A stretch of DNA of 64,000 bases from Aromatoleum anaerobium. Lineage in GTDB: Bacteria; Pseudomonadota; Gammaproteobacteria; Burkholderiales; Rhodocyclaceae. The position numbers and the translations under genes were made by a program. Positions 15,973 through 23,152 of this stretch are shown in pieces; position 1 is the first letter of the stretch, and each line of letters starts with the position of its first letter. The notes under the pieces are model-generated. The model was given only the letters and a program-made list of their open reading frames with translations, did not search any database and was not told the DNA's origin. The stretch is taken from assembly GCF_012910705.2 (NCBI RefSeq), contig NZ_WTVG02000036.1:248001-312000 (forward strand), written 5' to 3'.

Positions 15973-16908
15973 TCAGGCCTCGGGCGTGTAAGGGTGTTGC
16001 TCGATCCAGTGGCGGGCGATGTCGGCGCGACGGCACACCCACACCCGGTCGTGCTTCTCGATGTGGTCGAGGAAGCGCTGCAGCGCGCGGAAGCGCCCCG
16101 GGCGGCCGAGCAGCCGGCAATGCATGCCGACGCTCATCATCGCCGGCCGTTCGTCGCCCTCGGCGTACATCACGTCGAAGGCGTCACGCAGGTATTCGAA
16201 GAACTCGTCGCCGTGCGAAAAACCCTGCGGCAGCGCAAAGCGCATGTCGTTGGTATCCAGCGTGTAGGGCACGACCAGATGCGGCACGGTCTCGCCGTCG
16301 CTCTTCTGCACTTCGGTCCAGAACGGCAAGTCGTCGCCGTAGTAGTCCGAGTCGTACAGAAAGCCGCCGTAGTCGGCGACGAGGCGCCGGGTGTTCGGCG
16401 AGTCGCGCCCGGTGTACCAGCCGAGCGCGCGCTCGCCGGTGAGCCGCTCGATGATCTCCATGCCGACGCGCATGTGCTCGCGCTCGGTCGCTTCATCGAC
16501 GTGCTGGTAGTGGATCCAGCGCCAGCCGTGGCACGCGATCTCGTGGCGCAGCTCGCGAAACGCGGCCGTCACCTCCGGATGGCGCTCGAGCGCCATCGAC
16601 ACGCCGAAGATCGTCATCGGCAGGCCGCGTCGCTCGAACTCGCGCAGGAAGCGCCAAACACCGACGCGCGAACCGTACTCGTACACGCCTTCCATCGACA
16701 GGTGACGGTCGGGGATTGCCGGCGGATTGAACAGCTCCGACAGGAACTGCTCGCTGCCGGCATCGCCATGCAGCACGCAGTTCTCGCCGCCCTCCTCGTA
16801 GTTCAGCACGAACTGCACCGCGACACGCGCGCGGCCGGGCCAGTTCGCATACGGGGGGTTGCGACCGTAGCCGACCAGGTCGCGCGGGTAATTGGCATCC
16901 ATCTTCAT
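15973..16908 (-). CDS. puuE: Allantoinase, polysaccharide-deacetylase type (PuuE)
   Basis: 311 residues from the start chosen here. PuuE hydrolyses allantoin to allantoate and is unrelated to the amidohydrolase-type allantoinase. Signatures include YPRDLVGYGRNPP, FVLNYEEGGENCVLHGD, SMEGVYEYGSR, ALGWYTGRDSPNTRRL and HCRLLGRPGR near the end. ATG codons at 16911, 16908 and 16902 are all possible; a longer frame to 16962 has no family similarity. It is the last gene of the minus-strand regulator-racemase-permease-puuE unit. No urate oxidase is present, so allantoin, not urate, is the apparent entry point. Confidence 0.93.
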   Translation of the reverse strand: MKMDANYPRDLVGYGRNPPYANWPGRARVAVQFVLNYEEGGENCVLHGDAGSEQFLSELFNPPAIPDRHLSMEGVYEYGSRVGVWRFLREFERRGLPMTIFGVSMALERHPEVTAAFRELRHEIACHGWRWIHYQHVDEATEREHMRVGMEIIERLTGERALGWYTGRDSPNTRRLVADYGGFLYDSDYYGDDLPFWTEVQKSDGETVPHLVVPYTLDTNDMRFALPQGFSHGDEFFEYLRDAFDVMYAEGDERPAMMSVGMHCRLLGRPGRFRALQRFLDHIEKHDRVWVCRRADIARHWIEQHPYTPEA

Positions 16909-16989
16909 CATCTCTACCCAGTGCATTTGTCGCGCCTCCGGGGCATGGCCCCAACGGCGCATCCGCCCAACTTCATCGATGAGGGAAAA

Positions 16990-18393
16990 TCAGTTCTCGC
17001 AGAAGCGCCGGCAGGCGCCCCAGTGCTTCATCAGCAGGTAATAGGTGAGGCCCGCCGGAATCAGGCTGGCGTACCACGACACCGTCGAGAACGTGAGCGC
17101 GACGGCCGCGCCGACCAGCGAGGCGATGATGCCGGCGTAGTTCACGCCGCGATACGGCCCCTCTTCGTCGTACAGCTTGGCGAGGTTCAGCGTGCGGCGA
17201 CGCACGATGTAGTAGTCGACCACCAGCACCGCGAAGATCGGGCCGAGGAAGGCCGAGTAGGTCTGCACGAAGACCTGCAGGCCGGCGGCCGACTCGTCCT
17301 TGACGAGTTCCCACGGAAAAGTGCCGAAGGCGAGCAGACCGACGATGATCGCCGCAGTGCGGAAGGAGATCTTGAAGACATCCATCAGCACATAGGTCGG
17401 CGGCACGACGTTATTGAGCACGTTGGTCGTGACCTGGGCGAAGGTGATGAAGAGCAGCGTCGCGATCAGCAGCGGCTTGTTGTCGACGGCACTCGAGAAA
17501 ACCTGGATCGGGTCGGCCACGCCGGTCGCGCCCGACACCATCAGGCCGATGAGCCCCATGAACAGCGTGCAAGGCAGGATCGACATCGCGTAGATCGTGG
17601 TCAGCGGACCGCGCTTGACGCCCTTCTCCAGTTCGCGTGCGTAATCGCTGACGTTGAGCATCATCGTGCTGTAGATGCCGAGGAACAGCATCGTCGCGCC
17701 CCAGAACGGCAGGCCCCAGGTGCCCTCGATGTTCACCAGGCGCTCGGTGATCACGTCGCCGTACTTGTTGATGACGCTGATGAACATGTAGGTGAGCGAG
17801 ACGAGGATGAAGCCGCTGCCGATGTTCTCCAGCCACTTGATGCCCTGGAAGCCCAGCACCGACAGCGCAATCTGCAGCAGCTGGAACACCACGAACCAGA
17901 CCACCAGGTTGTCGAAGCCGAACATCGACACCGACACCGCGTTCAGCGCACCTGCGCCGACCCAGCTCTGGAAGCCGTACCACACGATCGCCGGCACCGC
18001 GCGCACGAGCCCGGGAAACTTCGTGCCGGCAAAACCGAAGGCGCTGCGCGCCTGCACCACGAAGGGGATGCCGTACTTGTAGCCGGCCGCGCCGTTCACC
18101 GTAAGCGCGATGCCGATAATGAAGCAGCCGATCGCGATCGCGAGGGTTGCCTGCAGCAGGTTCAGCGTGCCGACCACGCTGGAGCCCATCGCAAAGGTGC
18201 CGATCGACACGCAGCCGCCGAACCATGCCAGCAGATACGACCACTTGCCCATGATGCGGATCTGCTGCGGCGCCAGCGACTCCTCGCCGAGCGCCTTGTG
18301 CTGTCCCGCATGCTCCACGCCTTTCGCCGTCACTGCCGCGACCGCGTCCGGCTGCCAGCCGGCCAGGCCGACATCCTGATTCACTGTTGCCAT
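16990..18393 (-). CDS. NCS1-family allantoin/hydantoin permease
   Basis: 467 residues with about 12 hydrophobic segments, an inner-membrane symporter of the nucleobase:cation symporter-1 family. The N-terminal stretch QIRIMGKWSYLLAWFGGCVS and later FPGLVRAVPAIVWYGFQSW are characteristic. AGGAG stands 7 bases before the ATG at 18391-18393; a longer frame upstream is arginine/serine-rich and unlike the family. Placement between the racemase and PuuE makes allantoin the likely substrate, though NCS1 proteins also carry uracil, hydantoin or purines. Confidence 0.9.
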   Translation of the reverse strand: MATVNQDVGLAGWQPDAVAAVTAKGVEHAGQHKALGEESLAPQQIRIMGKWSYLLAWFGGCVSIGTFAMGSSVVGTLNLLQATLAIAIGCFIIGIALTVNGAAGYKYGIPFVVQARSAFGFAGTKFPGLVRAVPAIVWYGFQSWVGAGALNAVSVSMFGFDNLVVWFVVFQLLQIALSVLGFQGIKWLENIGSGFILVSLTYMFISVINKYGDVITERLVNIEGTWGLPFWGATMLFLGIYSTMMLNVSDYARELEKGVKRGPLTTIYAMSILPCTLFMGLIGLMVSGATGVADPIQVFSSAVDNKPLLIATLLFITFAQVTTNVLNNVVPPTYVLMDVFKISFRTAAIIVGLLAFGTFPWELVKDESAAGLQVFVQTYSAFLGPIFAVLVVDYYIVRRRTLNLAKLYDEEGPYRGVNYAGIIASLVGAAVALTFSTVSWYASLIPAGLTYYLLMKHWGACRRFCEN

Positions 18394-18499
18394 TGTCTCG
18401 CTCCTAGTTATACGGGCGCAGCTGTCGTGCCGCGCTCCGTGCTGCCTTGGTGTCGTTGTTCGGCCCCTTTCTCGGGTGGAGGCCTTCGATGCTGGGCGC

Positions 18500-19231
18500 T
18501 CAGGCGCTGAGGTATTCGAACTGTCCGGTGAAGCGCTTGGCGCGCGGGAAGGCGAGGTCGCCATGCTTGCTGGTGCCGAGCTTCAGGCTCGCGAGGGCCT
18601 CGACAAGCTTCACCGCAGCGGTAACGCCCTCGACGATCGGCAGCCCCACCGCCTGGCCGATCTCCTCGGTCAGGTCGGCCATGCCGCCGCAGCCCAGCAC
18701 GATCGCACCGATGCCGTCCTCGTCCCGCGCACGGCGGCATTCATCAATGATCCGCGACACCGCGCAGGCGCCGTCGTCCTCGAGGTCGAGCACCGGGATC
18801 TCGGCCGCACGCACGCGCCGGCAGTGGTGCGCGAAGCCGTAGGACTGCAGCAGGTGCTCGGCGATGATGCAGGTACGCCCGAGCGTCGTGACCACCGAGA
18901 AGCGCGTGCTGATCATCGTTGCGAGATGAAAGGCGGCCTCGGCGATCCCTACCACCGGCCTGGCCGTCAGTTCGCGCGCCGCGAGCAGGCCCGGATCGCC
19001 GAAGCAGGCGATGATGTAACCGTCTGCGGCCTCGCGCTCGCCCTTGCGGATTTCCTCGGTCACGCCGAGCGCGCTGATCGCCTCGTCGAAGTGACTTTCG
19101 ATCGACACCGGCCCGCTCGTCGGATTGGTGGCGGTGATGATCGTGCCGGGCGCCGCGACACGACGCGCGGCCTCGCCGATCTTCGCGGTCATGCTCGCGG
19201 TGGTGTTGGGGTTGATGACTCGAATCTGCAT
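18500..19231 (-). CDS. hpxA: Allantoin/hydantoin racemase (Asp/Glu racemase superfamily)
   Basis: 243 residues. It begins MQIRVINPNTTASMT, typical of hydantoin/allantoin racemases, and shows the two catalytic cysteines in ACFGDPGL and VLGCGGM. It interconverts allantoin enantiomers so that stereospecific allantoinase can consume both. GAGGAG is 7 bases before the ATG at 19229-19231. It lies between the regulator gene and the permease gene. Assignment to allantoin rather than another hydantoin rests on context; the symbol follows the Klebsiella allantoin racemase. Confidence 0.85.
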   Translation of the reverse strand: MQIRVINPNTTASMTAKIGEAARRVAAPGTIITATNPTSGPVSIESHFDEAISALGVTEEIRKGEREAADGYIIACFGDPGLLAARELTARPVVGIAEAAFHLATMISTRFSVVTTLGRTCIIAEHLLQSYGFAHHCRRVRAAEIPVLDLEDDGACAVSRIIDECRRARDEDGIGAIVLGCGGMADLTEEIGQAVGLPIVEGVTAAVKLVEALASLKLGTSKHGDLAFPRAKRFTGQFEYLSA

Positions 19232-19274
19232 CGCGTGCTCCTCGCTGCTGGTGTGGGGACTGCCCCGCCGGGGC

Positions 19275-20030
19275 TTATCGTTCGCGCCGCTGGCGTTGCG
19301 CCACGGCGTCCAGAATCTTGCGCAGGTCCGGCTCCTCGGGCGCCTCCTCGACCAGGACGACGGTGCGCTCGACGTCGCGCAGGTGCCGGTCCATCCATTG
19401 CTGTGCGGCCGGCGCATCGCCCGCTGCGATCAACTCCAGCACGTCGTCGTGCTCGGAGTGGCGGCAGCTGCCAGCCATCGGTGCACCGTAGGTCGCGATC
19501 ACCAGCGAGGAACGGGACACCAGCCGCGCGAGGAAATCCGCGATCGCCTCGTTCTCGGCAACCTTCGCCAGTTCGACGTGGAATTCGCCGGACAGGAAAA
19601 TCGCCTCGCGCCGGTCGCCTCGCGCCTCGGCTGCGTGCTCGCGCTGGACGATCGCGCCCAGCCCCTCGATGCGCTCGGGCGTGGCCTTCGCGACGACTTG
19701 GGGCATCACGCCGCATTCGACAATGCGCCGCGCCGCGAACACGTCGCGCGCCTCCTTGACGGTTGGCTGGGCTACGGTCGCGCCGCGGTTGAGCCGAATA
19801 TCCACCAGCCGCTCGTACGAGAGGCGCTGCAGCACCTTGCGGATGCTCGTACGACTGACGCCGAAGGCCTCGGCCAACGTGTCCTCCGGCAGCTTGGTGC
19901 CGGGTGCGAGATGATTCTCGACAATCGCCGCGTACAGGTTGCGATAGATGGCTTCGTCGCGACCATTGCCCGAGCCCCCCTCCTCGCCATGTGCTGTTCC
20001 CAGATCGATCGCCGACCGTTTCTTGCTCAT
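19275..20030 (-). CDS. GntR-family transcriptional regulator, FadR (FCD) subgroup
   Basis: 251 residues from ATG 20028-20030. The winged-helix DNA-binding domain covers about 30-100 (AIYRNLYAAIVENHLAPGTK, AFGVSRTSIRKVLQRLSYE). The C-terminal FCD ligand domain has the FHVELAK and HLRDVERTV helices with metal-binding histidines. It heads the minus-strand racemase-permease-puuE unit and is divergent from allantoicase. It probably regulates both directions from the 433-bp intergenic region, with an allantoin pathway intermediate as effector. The effector is inference. Confidence 0.88.
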   Translation of the reverse strand: MSKKRSAIDLGTAHGEEGGSGNGRDEAIYRNLYAAIVENHLAPGTKLPEDTLAEAFGVSRTSIRKVLQRLSYERLVDIRLNRGATVAQPTVKEARDVFAARRIVECGVMPQVVAKATPERIEGLGAIVQREHAAEARGDRREAIFLSGEFHVELAKVAENEAIADFLARLVSRSSLVIATYGAPMAGSCRHSEHDDVLELIAAGDAPAAQQWMDRHLRDVERTVVLVEEAPEEPDLRKILDAVAQRQRRER

Positions 20031-20463: not shown

Positions 20464-21501
20464 ATGAGCAGTCATAACACCGGCAGCATCCGGATCGCCG
20501 AGCCCCCCGTCCTGCCCGACTGGGCGGCCCGCTCGGTCGACCTCGCCAACCCGAGGATCGGTGCCGCCGCGCTGTATGCCTCCGACGACTTCTTCGCCGA
20601 CGTCTCGCGCATGCTCAACCCCGACCCCGCCCAGTTCATCCCGGGCAAGTTCGACGACAACGGCAAGTGGATGGACGGCTGGGAGACGCGCCGCAAGCGC
20701 ACTACCGGTCACGACTGGTGCTTTGTCAAATTGGGCCGCAAGGGCACGATCCGCGGCTTCGACGTCGACACCAGCCACTTCACCGGAAACTACGCCCCCG
20801 CCGTTTCGATCGAGGCGACGGTCTCGGATACCGACGACGTCGCCGCGCTGAAGGACGCGAAGTGGGTCGAGATCCTGCCCTCGACCTCGCTGTCCGGAAA
20901 CAGCCATCACTTGCTGCGTGCGAACGCGGACGAAGCCTTCACTCATCTGCGCGTCAACATCTACCCCGACGGCGGCATCGCGCGACTGCGTGTCTATGGC
21001 CAGCCGGTCGGCGTGTTCGAGGGGCGCGGCGATGAGCTCGTCGACCTCGTCGCGCTGGAAAACGGCGGCCGCCCGGTCGCATGGAACGACGCGCACTTCG
21101 GCTCGGCCGCGAACCTCATCCTGCCCGGGCGCGGCATCAACATGGGTGACGGCTGGGAAACCCGCCGCCGCCGCGAGCCGGGCAACGACTGGTGCATCCT
21201 GCAGCTCGGCGGCGCCGGCACGATCGAGAAGATCGAAGTCGACACTGCCCACTTCAAAGGCAACTACCCCGACCGCTGCTCGATCCAGGCTGCGTTCGTC
21301 GAGGGCGGCACCGACCAGTCGGTGATCACACAGAGCATGTTCTGGCCGGTGCTGCTGCCCGAGCAAAAGCTCTCCATGGACGCGATCCACACTTTCACTG
21401 AACAGATCGAGAAAATGGGCCCCGTCACCCACGTGCGCCTCAACATCTTCCCGGACGGCGGCGTCTCCCGCCTGCGCTTGTGGGGCAAAGTGCAGCGATG
21501 A
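20464..21501 (+). CDS. alc: Allantoicase
   Basis: 345 residues from ATG 20464 with AGGAG 7 bases upstream. A longer in-frame extension back to 20110 reads through the repeat array and promoter and is rejected. It hydrolyses allantoate to ureidoglycolate and urea. Two tandem allantoicase domains are visible as an internal repeat: [20 protein letters not shown] and [20 protein letters not shown], each followed by a VDT.HF.GNY block. The stop overlaps the allA start (ATGA), so the two are translationally coupled. Confidence 0.95.
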
Positions 21502-22034
21502 ACACGAAGCCCGCACCGGCACCGACCGCGCCCTCACCGAGAACGATCGTCGCCGAACCCCTGACGCGGGAAGCGTTTGCGCCTTTCGGCGATGTCATCG
21601 AAGCCGACGATGCGGTACGCCACTTCCCGATCAACGGCGGCAACACCGTGCGCTATCACGACCTCGCGAACATCGATCCGGGACCGGACGGGCACGCGAT
21701 CCTGTCGATTTTCCGCGGCGAACCGCGCGCGCTGCCGTTCGCAGTGGAGATGATGGAGCGGCACCCGCTCGGCAGTCAGGCTTTCGTGCCGGTATCGGGA
21801 CGTCCATACCTCGTCGTCGTCGCCGCCGCCGGCGAGGCGCCGGGCGTCGAATCCCTGCGCGTCTTCAGGGCGCGCGGCGACCAGGGCGTCAATTACGCGC
21901 GCGGCGTCTGGCACCACCCGCTGCTTGCGCTCGGCGCGGTCTCCGACTTCATCGTCATCGACCGCGCCGGGCCCGGCCACAACTGCGACGAGGTAACGGT
22001 CGCCGACACCGTCCTGATCGACATCCCCCGCTGA
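21498..22034 (+). CDS. allA: Ureidoglycolate lyase
   Basis: 178 residues. It splits ureidoglycolate to glyoxylate and urea, the last step of this pathway. Family blocks include [33 protein letters not shown] and [16 protein letters not shown]. The ATG overlaps the allantoicase stop by four bases. Immediately downstream is a scar of broken genes whose intact relatives handle urea and glyoxylate, the two products of this reaction. Confidence 0.93.
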
Positions 22035-22094
22035 ACAGCCCACGTCCGGCCCCGCGGCCGGACGTCGCCGGCGCAACCGGACACTCACGCCTCC

Positions 22095-22186
22095 ATGCTT
22101 ACCGGCCTCGCCCTGTTCTACGTCGCGCCGTCCTCATCCTCAACGGGCTGTGGATGCTCGGACGGATCAGCGACCGCGAAATCGCG
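22095..22186 (+). pseudogene. Fragment of AmiS/UreI-type urea/amide channel gene (first ~30 codons, frameshifted)
   Basis: MLTGLALFYV reads from ATG 22095. One base appears to be missing at about 22125, after which the +1 frame continues AVLILNGLWMLGRISDREIA. Together these match the first transmembrane segment of AmiS/UreI channels (compare MLGLVLLYVGAVLFLNAVW in AmiS). The remaining membrane segments are absent: the frame passes directly into a reductase fragment. Urea is released twice upstream in the pathway, so a urea channel would fit the operon. Confidence 0.7.
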
Positions 22187-22375
22187 GGCTTCCGCATCGA
22201 ACTGCACCAGAAGGACCTGAACCTCGGGTTGACCGTTGCGCGCCAGATCGGCATGTCGCTGCCCAACACCGCGACCGCACAGGAACTGTTCAACGCCTGC
22301 GCCGCGCACGGCGGTGCCAGCCGTGACCACTCGGCAACGGTGCAGGCGCTGGAGAAGATGGCCAACGTCGAAGTG
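22187..22375 (+). pseudogene. glxR: C-terminal fragment of tartronate semialdehyde reductase
   Basis: About 63 residues beginning GFRIELHQKDLNLGLTVARQ, then LPNTATAQELFNACAAHGG and DHSATVQALEKMAN. This is the C-terminal end of GlxR (E. coli: HQKDLNLALQSAK, LPNTATCQELFNTCAANGG, DHSALVQALELMAN). The Rossmann domain and about 230 N-terminal residues are missing, and the fragment is fused in frame to the channel fragment. GlxR reduces tartronate semialdehyde made from glyoxylate by Gcl. Confidence 0.85.
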
Positions 22376-22376
22376 T

Positions 22377-22562
22377 GGGGCGGGCGTGCACCCGGTACCC
22401 TTCGAGAATGCGCAGGGCGTGACCGGGATGGTCGAGCACGCATGCACGGCTGTCGTCATCCACGGCTTCGCCGAGCCCGGCGACGACATCGTCGTGGTCG
22501 CCGGTTTGCCCTTCGGCCTTAGCGGCAGCACCAACCTGCTGCACATCGCGCACATCAGCTGA
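22377..22562 (+). pseudogene. pyk: C-terminal fragment of pyruvate kinase
   Basis: In a different frame from the reductase fragment: GVHPVPFENAQGVTGMVEHA, then GFAEPGDDIVVVAGLPFGLS and GSTNLLHIAHIS before a TGA at 22560-22562. This matches the regulatory C-terminal domain of pyruvate kinase. In many proteobacteria (for example P. aeruginosa) gcl-hyi-glxR-ttuD-pyk forms one glyoxylate-assimilation operon. The order glxR then pyk is therefore preserved with ttuD deleted between them. Confidence 0.75.
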
Positions 22563-22597
22563 GGCCCCCCGGCGCCCAGCCGCCCGTGAGGGCTGTA

Positions 22598-22635
22598 AAG
22601 CAAAATGGCCAGTCTTTTGACTGGCCATTTTGCTT
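22598..22635. terminator. Strong bidirectional terminator
   Basis: AAGCAAAATGGCCAGTC pairs perfectly over 17 bp with GACTGGCCATTTTGCTT across a TTTT loop. It separates the plus-strand allantoin genes from the minus-strand tRNA-Pro and merR-ihfA region. Confidence 0.85.
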
Positions 22636-22643
22636 GATTCCAT

Positions 22644-22721
<78 letters not shown>

Positions 22722-22768
22722 CACAAGCGAGCATTATAGCGATATTCTCGACATTTGCCAGTACTGCC

Positions 22769-23152
22769 TCAGGCCTTGAGGTGCTCCAGCGTGGTGACGA
22801 TTTCCGACCGCACGTGCGCGATCAAGGATCGCAGACGCGAGACTTCCTCGGCCTCTTCATGCTGGTGGATCGCCGTCTCCCCGAGCTTGTTGCGGGCGCC
22901 CGAAATGGTGAAGCCCTCCTCGTAGAGCAGTTCCCGGATCCGGCGGACGAGCAGTACTTCATGATGTTGATAGTAGCGTCGGTTACCCCGCCGCTTCACC
23001 GGCTTGAGCTGGGTGAATTCCTGTTCCCAGTATCGGAGCACGTGTGGTTTGACAGCGCACAGTTCGCTGACCTCGCCGATCGTGAAATACCGCTTTGCCG
23101 GGATCGGCGGCAGTTGAGTGGCCGGAGTCTCGTTATGGCTGCTTGCTTGCAT
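22769..23152 (-). CDS. MerR-family transcriptional regulator
   Basis: 127 residues. A MerR helix-turn-helix occupies about 20-90 ([45 protein letters not shown]), followed by a short coiled-coil tail. There are no metal-binding cysteine motifs. Its start overlaps the ihfA end by 20 bp, a gene order conserved in beta- and gammaproteobacteria. Target unknown. Confidence 0.93.

Follow-up and report, generated by a model that had tools for sequence, protein, structure and literature searches.

The segment at positions 22095-22562 is very probably a non-functional deletion scar of a glyoxylate operon, and represents gene loss and not the gain of a new function. The window, a 64,000-nucleotide stretch, corresponds to positions 248001-312000 of contig C37 in the genome of Aromatoleum anaerobium (G000; 4.56 Mb in 40 contigs). 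Six-frame translation of 22035-22620, Pfam searches, and a DNA comparison that took in 60 relatives identified three gene pieces in order within this segment, all on the + strand. Because the sister genome G008 retains the older gene order, the scar can be interpreted with nearly base-level precision. The original prediction placed pieces of amiS, glxR and pyk within about 470 bp, and this was confirmed by translation, by Pfam (for glxR and pyk), and by the DNA match to G008. The features of the scar and its surroundings are as follows:

15973..16962, - strand: puuE, allantoinase, intact (TIGR03212, 500.7 bits; cut-off 424.6)
16990..18564, - strand: NCS1-family transporter, probably allantoin permease, start codon uncertain (TIGR00800, 192.7 bits, below the cut-off of 353.1)
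18500..19417, - strand: Asp/Glu/hydantoin racemase family gene (PF01177, E 8.1e-55)
20473..21501, + strand: alc, allantoicase, intact, start codon uncertain (TIGR02961, 471 bits; cut-off 277.9)
21480..22034, + strand: allA, ureidoglycolate lyase, intact (PF04115, E 1.9e-61; NF009932 over cut-off)
22095..22186, + strand: amiS remnant (AmiS/UreI urea channel), codons 1-31, one base missing near codon 11
22185..22187, + strand: junction 1, amiS to glxR, 2-base overlap (CG)
22187..22374 (or 22375), + strand: glxR remnant, residues 237-299 of 301, 62-63 codons (PF14833, E 1.4e-14)
22373..22375, + strand: junction 2, glxR to pyk, 2-base overlap (GT)
about 22375..22562, + strand: pyk remnant, about the last 60 codons (PF02887, E 1.1e-11)
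22580..22590, no strand: junction 3 (approximate), where the window lacks the lysR that G008 has between pyk and tRNA-Pro
22644..22720, - strand: tRNA-Pro(ggg), the right-hand landmark, found also in G007 and G008

The scar is interpreted as the product of deletions because all three pieces have DNA matches in G008, where each lies in its expected position within a more complete operon. In G008, the order is alc-allA-amiS-gcl-hyi-glxR-ttuD-glcG-pyk-lysR-tRNA-Pro(ggg)-merR-pheT, with lysR on the other strand and a glcG/HbpS-like gene between ttuD and pyk. Both genomes share the left flank (puuE, the NCS1 permease, the racemase, alc and allA) and the right flank (tRNA-Pro-merR-pheT). The predicted loss by deletion from an amiS-gcl-hyi-glxR-ttuD-pyk run was borne out, as was the position of the scar directly after intact alc and allA genes. 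The NCS1 transporter is 97% identical to that of G008 over residues 31-524, and the racemase family gene is, judging by its position, possibly an allantoin racemase. The likely start of allA is the ATG at 21498, which overlaps the alc stop. Among NCBIfam models, the G008 LysR scores best with TtdR, at 184 bits and below the cut-off of 398.

The window matches G008 in three blocks that lie kilobases apart in the latter. The first, from allA through 22186, is an 89% DNA match; it carries the identity of the amiS piece, which falls under the family cut-off in Pfam (PF02293, E 0.092). Compared to G008 amiS, this piece has three silent differences, no amino-acid differences, and the single missing base near codon 11, which agrees with the frameshift that had been predicted. 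The glxR piece is 95% identical to G008 at the DNA level, and the pyk piece, which contains a 4-base GGGC tandem duplication near 22377-22385, is 88% identical. The glxR piece had been described as the last ~63 codons of the gene; it does consist of 62-63 codons from the GlxR end, but it stops at residue 299 and is without the final two codons and the stop. Horizontal transfer of the fragments was rejected, as each piece is 88-95% identical to the matching gene at the same locus of the sister genome.

At junction 1, amiS codon 31 is joined to glxR residue 237, and 6.48 kb of G008 DNA (L027 2112-8587) is absent, of which about 2.5 kb is the element that interrupts gcl in G008. At junction 2, glxR residue 299 is joined to pyk, and 5.70 kb (L027 8776-14475) is absent, of which about 2.7 kb is the element that interrupts pyk. 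These elements, an IS91-type/integrase element and an IS21-type element, respectively, each fall inside a stretch that is deleted in G000. The overlap at junction 2 holds if a position that is A in G008 is taken as G. By our own arithmetic, a random break would give an overlap of at least 2 bases with a probability of about 0.16, and the 2-base overlaps therefore say little. Neither long repeats nor a mobile element were found at the two inner junctions. Long microhomology was rejected given the 2-base overlaps, and deletion driven by an insertion element is unproven, as no element or element end remains in the scar.

The original prediction invoked two deletions; a third was found just past 22562, where the window soon reaches the tRNA terminator 3′ of the pyk stop and G008 has a lysR of ~1.1 kb. 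The related genome G007 retains a short 5′ stretch of lysR, and a deletion is therefore likelier than an insertion at this site. Several losses terminate right beside the tRNA-Pro terminator. Phage or island attachment at tRNA-Pro was considered and rejected, since the tRNA and the pheT beyond it would be protected by selection. No match listed for the 60 relatives spans either inner junction. The promoter and terminator scan found no promoter-like site on the + strand of 21950-22800.

The ancestor would have carried alc-allA-amiS-gcl-hyi-glxR-ttuD-glcG-pyk, followed by a TtdR-like lysR and tRNA-Pro. Three deletions by illegitimate joining would then have occurred in this lineage, in an order and from a cause that we can only infer. 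The first would have removed amiS codon 32 through glxR codon 236; the second, the end of glxR together with ttuD, glcG and the greater part of pyk; and the third, the TtdR-like lysR. The 1-base loss in amiS and the 4-base duplication in pyk may have accompanied the deletions or come after them. With these deletions gcl, which encodes the entry enzyme of the glycerate pathway, is gone.

The interpretation as a deletion scar is also based on the absence of gcl from G000 and on the differing states of the locus in related genomes. No gcl was found in the G000 assembly over the TIGR01504 cut-off of 711 bits (best match, 335 bits), in keeping with the original prediction. The genus sample consisted of 17 genomes including G000, the genus being assigned as Aromatoleum from the named relatives of AllA. 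In a tree of the merR-pheT stretch with 18 rows, G000, G005, G007, G008 and G011 form one clade with support of 100/100, within which G000 groups with G011 (92/93) and G007 with G008 (97/99). A gcl over the family cut-off is present in none of the five clade genomes and in 11 of the 12 remaining genomes, the exception being G002 (Fisher p 0.001, with kinship ignored).

The operon is decayed differently in each of the four sister genomes. The G008 operon is itself broken by a frameshift near amiS codon 50 and by two mobile-element insertions: an element with an IS91-type transposase and an integrase interrupts gcl, and an IS21-type element interrupts pyk. Its hyi, glxR and ttuD are whole. The element in gcl (L027 3373-5906) encodes an IS91-type transposase and a tyrosine integrase, and the string GGTTTAG occurs at both of its edges. 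G007 has undergone at least four deletions, carries frameshifts in glxR and ttuD, and has no alc or allA. Neither G011 nor G005 has the operon: the left and right flanks nearly touch in G011, about 7.6 kb of other DNA lies between them in G005, and the left breakpoints of the two genomes are different. The G005 stretch (L147 8502-16079) was unmatched in the fetched G008 stretches; it encodes a GGDEF/PAS protein and a DUF4112 protein beside tRNA-Pro, and none of the four open reading frames tested in it is an integrase. Outside the clade, G002 has its own deletion of gcl, hyi and most of glxR (L033 7672-7673), which leaves the last 42 glxR codons preceding an intact ttuD-glcG-pyk.

The losses of gcl in the clade were probably separate events. 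This is favoured over one ancestral loss because trimming of the element boundaries leaves the two halves of the G008 gcl free of internal stops (the family search gave one TAG per hit), and the gene looks recently interrupted. The halves gave dN/dS values of 0.10-0.16 against 11 intact relatives, compared to 0.07 and 0.08 for two intact control pairs. Given the state of these halves, and since hyi, glxR and ttuD are whole, the ancestor of G008 probably had a working operon. A single loss at the base of the clade, after which erosion produced the differing remains of the present genomes, is unlikely in our estimation. It does account for the lack of an intact gcl in all five clade genomes and requires the fewest changes on the tree, namely two (one at the base of the clade and one in G002). 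In addition, the G008 lesions fall in DNA that is deleted in G000, so that any sharing of lesions cannot show, and the dN/dS of the G008 gcl exceeds that of the controls, which would permit some relaxation. The condition of the G008 genes argues against such an early loss, however, as does the finding that the frameshifts in glxR and ttuD of the sister genome G007 are absent from G008.

Another possibility considered was a chimeric gene, in which the two inner deletions brought AmiS(1-31), GlxR(237-299) and the end of Pyk into one frame, with translation, now or in the past, beginning at the amiS start that follows allA. Coordinate arithmetic showed that one frame is indeed common to amiS downstream of the missing base, glxR, and pyk upstream of the GGGC duplication, and the amiS piece differs from G008 by silent changes only. 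However, agreement in frame is expected by chance in 1 of 9 cases, the two indels break the frame as assembled, and the fusion is absent from relatives among the matches listed. Those two indels, one base lost in amiS and four bases duplicated in pyk, are all that breaks the would-be AmiS-GlxR-Pyk fusion.

The glxR and pyk pieces also have more amino-acid than silent changes, which argues against a translated fusion. On the G000 branch, these pieces accumulated 5 silent and 9 amino-acid changes, whereas the intact Alc accumulated 18 silent and 5 amino-acid changes on the same branch (Fisher p 0.015, from small counts). The same pieces on the G008 branch showed 5 silent and 2 amino-acid changes, with 7 sites unpolarised, and the difference between the two branches was not significant (p 0.18, again from small counts). 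The substitution counts thus lean toward relaxed selection on the pieces and are not decisive. A chimeric gene is considered very improbable. That the operon is intact and was collapsed by the assembler is scarcely credible, even with a genome in 40 contigs, as the site is internal to contig C37, neither gcl nor the hyi and ttuD belonging to the operon turned up elsewhere in the assembly, the scar has its own small indels and point changes, and the sister genomes are independently broken at this locus.

In terms of glyoxylate, the strain was originally proposed to have lost this compound as a carbon source. With gcl missing, the gene content indicates that glyoxylate has likely been lost as a sole carbon source, and loss of allantoin as a sole carbon source can fairly be inferred. 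"Lost glyoxylate" is nevertheless overstated, because malate synthase G is present, as are further copies of a GlxR/GarR-type reductase, Hyi, TtuD and pyruvate kinase; the step that is missing is the entry step, gcl. Malate synthase G (G000:C37:237358-239517), to which glyoxylate would pass, is found in all 17 genomes of the genus. The search for glxR elsewhere in G000 gave a GlxR/GarR-type reductase over the cut-off, and there are two whole pyruvate kinases, one with ttuD beside it; the reductase and pyruvate kinase searches covered 16 of the 17 genus genomes. A second hyi-ttuD-glcG locus occurs in G000 (L169 7494-9104, contig C2). In a search of 13 of the 17 genomes, this locus was whole in G011 and G005, and only hyi was left in G007 and G008. 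Its role as a replacement for the operon was rejected, as its ttuD is internally deleted in G000.

Allantoicase and AllA release nitrogen as urea. It had been predicted that the strain kept allantoin as a nitrogen source, and this part of the prediction is not supported, as G000 has no urease and no urea carboxylase over the cut-off. The search for the urease alpha subunit (ureC, TIGR01792) gave 0 matches in G000. Among the matches listed, none of 28 genomes has a urea carboxylase over the TIGR02712 cut-off, and those listed for G000 extend over no more than the biotin-carboxylase part, some of them over less. Of the 17 genus genomes, 8 have urease alpha; it is absent from the five clade genomes and from G002, G003, G006 and G009. 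Allantoicase is present in 12 of 17, and an intact AmiS in 6 of 17; AmiS is broken in G008, and the G000 piece is below detection. Of the 12 genomes with alc, all 5 without urease and 3 of the 7 with urease also have AmiS or a remnant of it (p 0.08). G003, G006 and G009 combine allantoicase with an intact AmiS, and G000 and G008 combine it with a broken one; in all five, neither urease nor an above-cut-off urea carboxylase was found. In these genomes, urea may be a waste product that leaves by AmiS.

The dN/dS values between G000 and G008 were 0.08 for Alc and 0.27 for AllA, within the ranges of nine other pairs (0.07-0.20 and 0.17-0.39, respectively), and both proteins still look constrained, as in relatives. 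Because urease, urea carboxylase and gcl are all lacking, yet Alc and AllA are constrained, the branch may serve neither textbook purpose in this clade; it would yield urea of no use to the cell, and glyoxylate open only to malate synthase or a side route. We tentatively suggest, as a possibility that is far from established, that it is kept for the supply of glyoxylate alongside acetyl-CoA, for allantoin removal, or for another purpose, with urea as waste and AmiS (a remnant in G000, intact in three urease-less relatives) as the urea exit. The puzzle is what purpose the allantoicase branch serves when urea and glyoxylate are both without their usual use. A literature search on Aromatoleum and allantoin found nothing relevant, and that on Aromatoleum and glyoxylate met only the glyoxylate shunt in the partial texts available.

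The lost genes resemble the Pseudomonas aeruginosa cluster gcl-hyi-glxR-glxK/ttuD-pykF (PA1498-PA1502), which is described in the available excerpt of PMC12694930 as allantoin-induced, has the same enzymes, and likewise couples the breakdown of allantoin to the use of glyoxylate. According to this excerpt, gcl, hyi and glxR mutants do not grow on allantoin as the sole carbon source and grow on glucose with allantoin. Unlike in P. aeruginosa, the cluster is deleted in G000, related genomes have the glcG/HbpS-like gene between ttuD and pyk, and G008 has amiS between allA and gcl. The Pseudomonas umsongensis GO16 locus is similar in that the LysR regulator TtdR lies beside gcl (excerpt of PMC13357446), TtdR being also the best model for the G008 LysR; in G008, however, lysR lies beyond pyk and scores below the TtdR cut-off, and in the window it is gone. 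Cupriavidus necator has a malate cycle by which glyoxylate can be routed through malate synthase when gcl-hyi-tsr is deleted, and the growth of that organism on glycolate via malate synthase needs Calvin cycle carbon fixation (excerpt of PMC7486775). G000 likewise has malate synthase G.

The scar is real and well explained, and is a new example of ordinary operon decay: as in such decay, neighbouring species show genes that are truncated, frameshifted, interrupted by mobile elements or missing altogether. The only unusual aspect is that the five sister genomes together preserve, at a single locus, almost every stage of the process, with recent insertions in G008, deletions and frameshifts in G007 and G000, and complete absence in G005 and G011. 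The further separate gcl-hyi-glxR deletion in G002 adds to this natural record of one pathway repeatedly lost, the value of which is moderate and comparative. Elsewhere in the genus, G009 has a second allantoicase copy in two frames (G009:C1:1373495-1374450), and another copy in that genome is whole.
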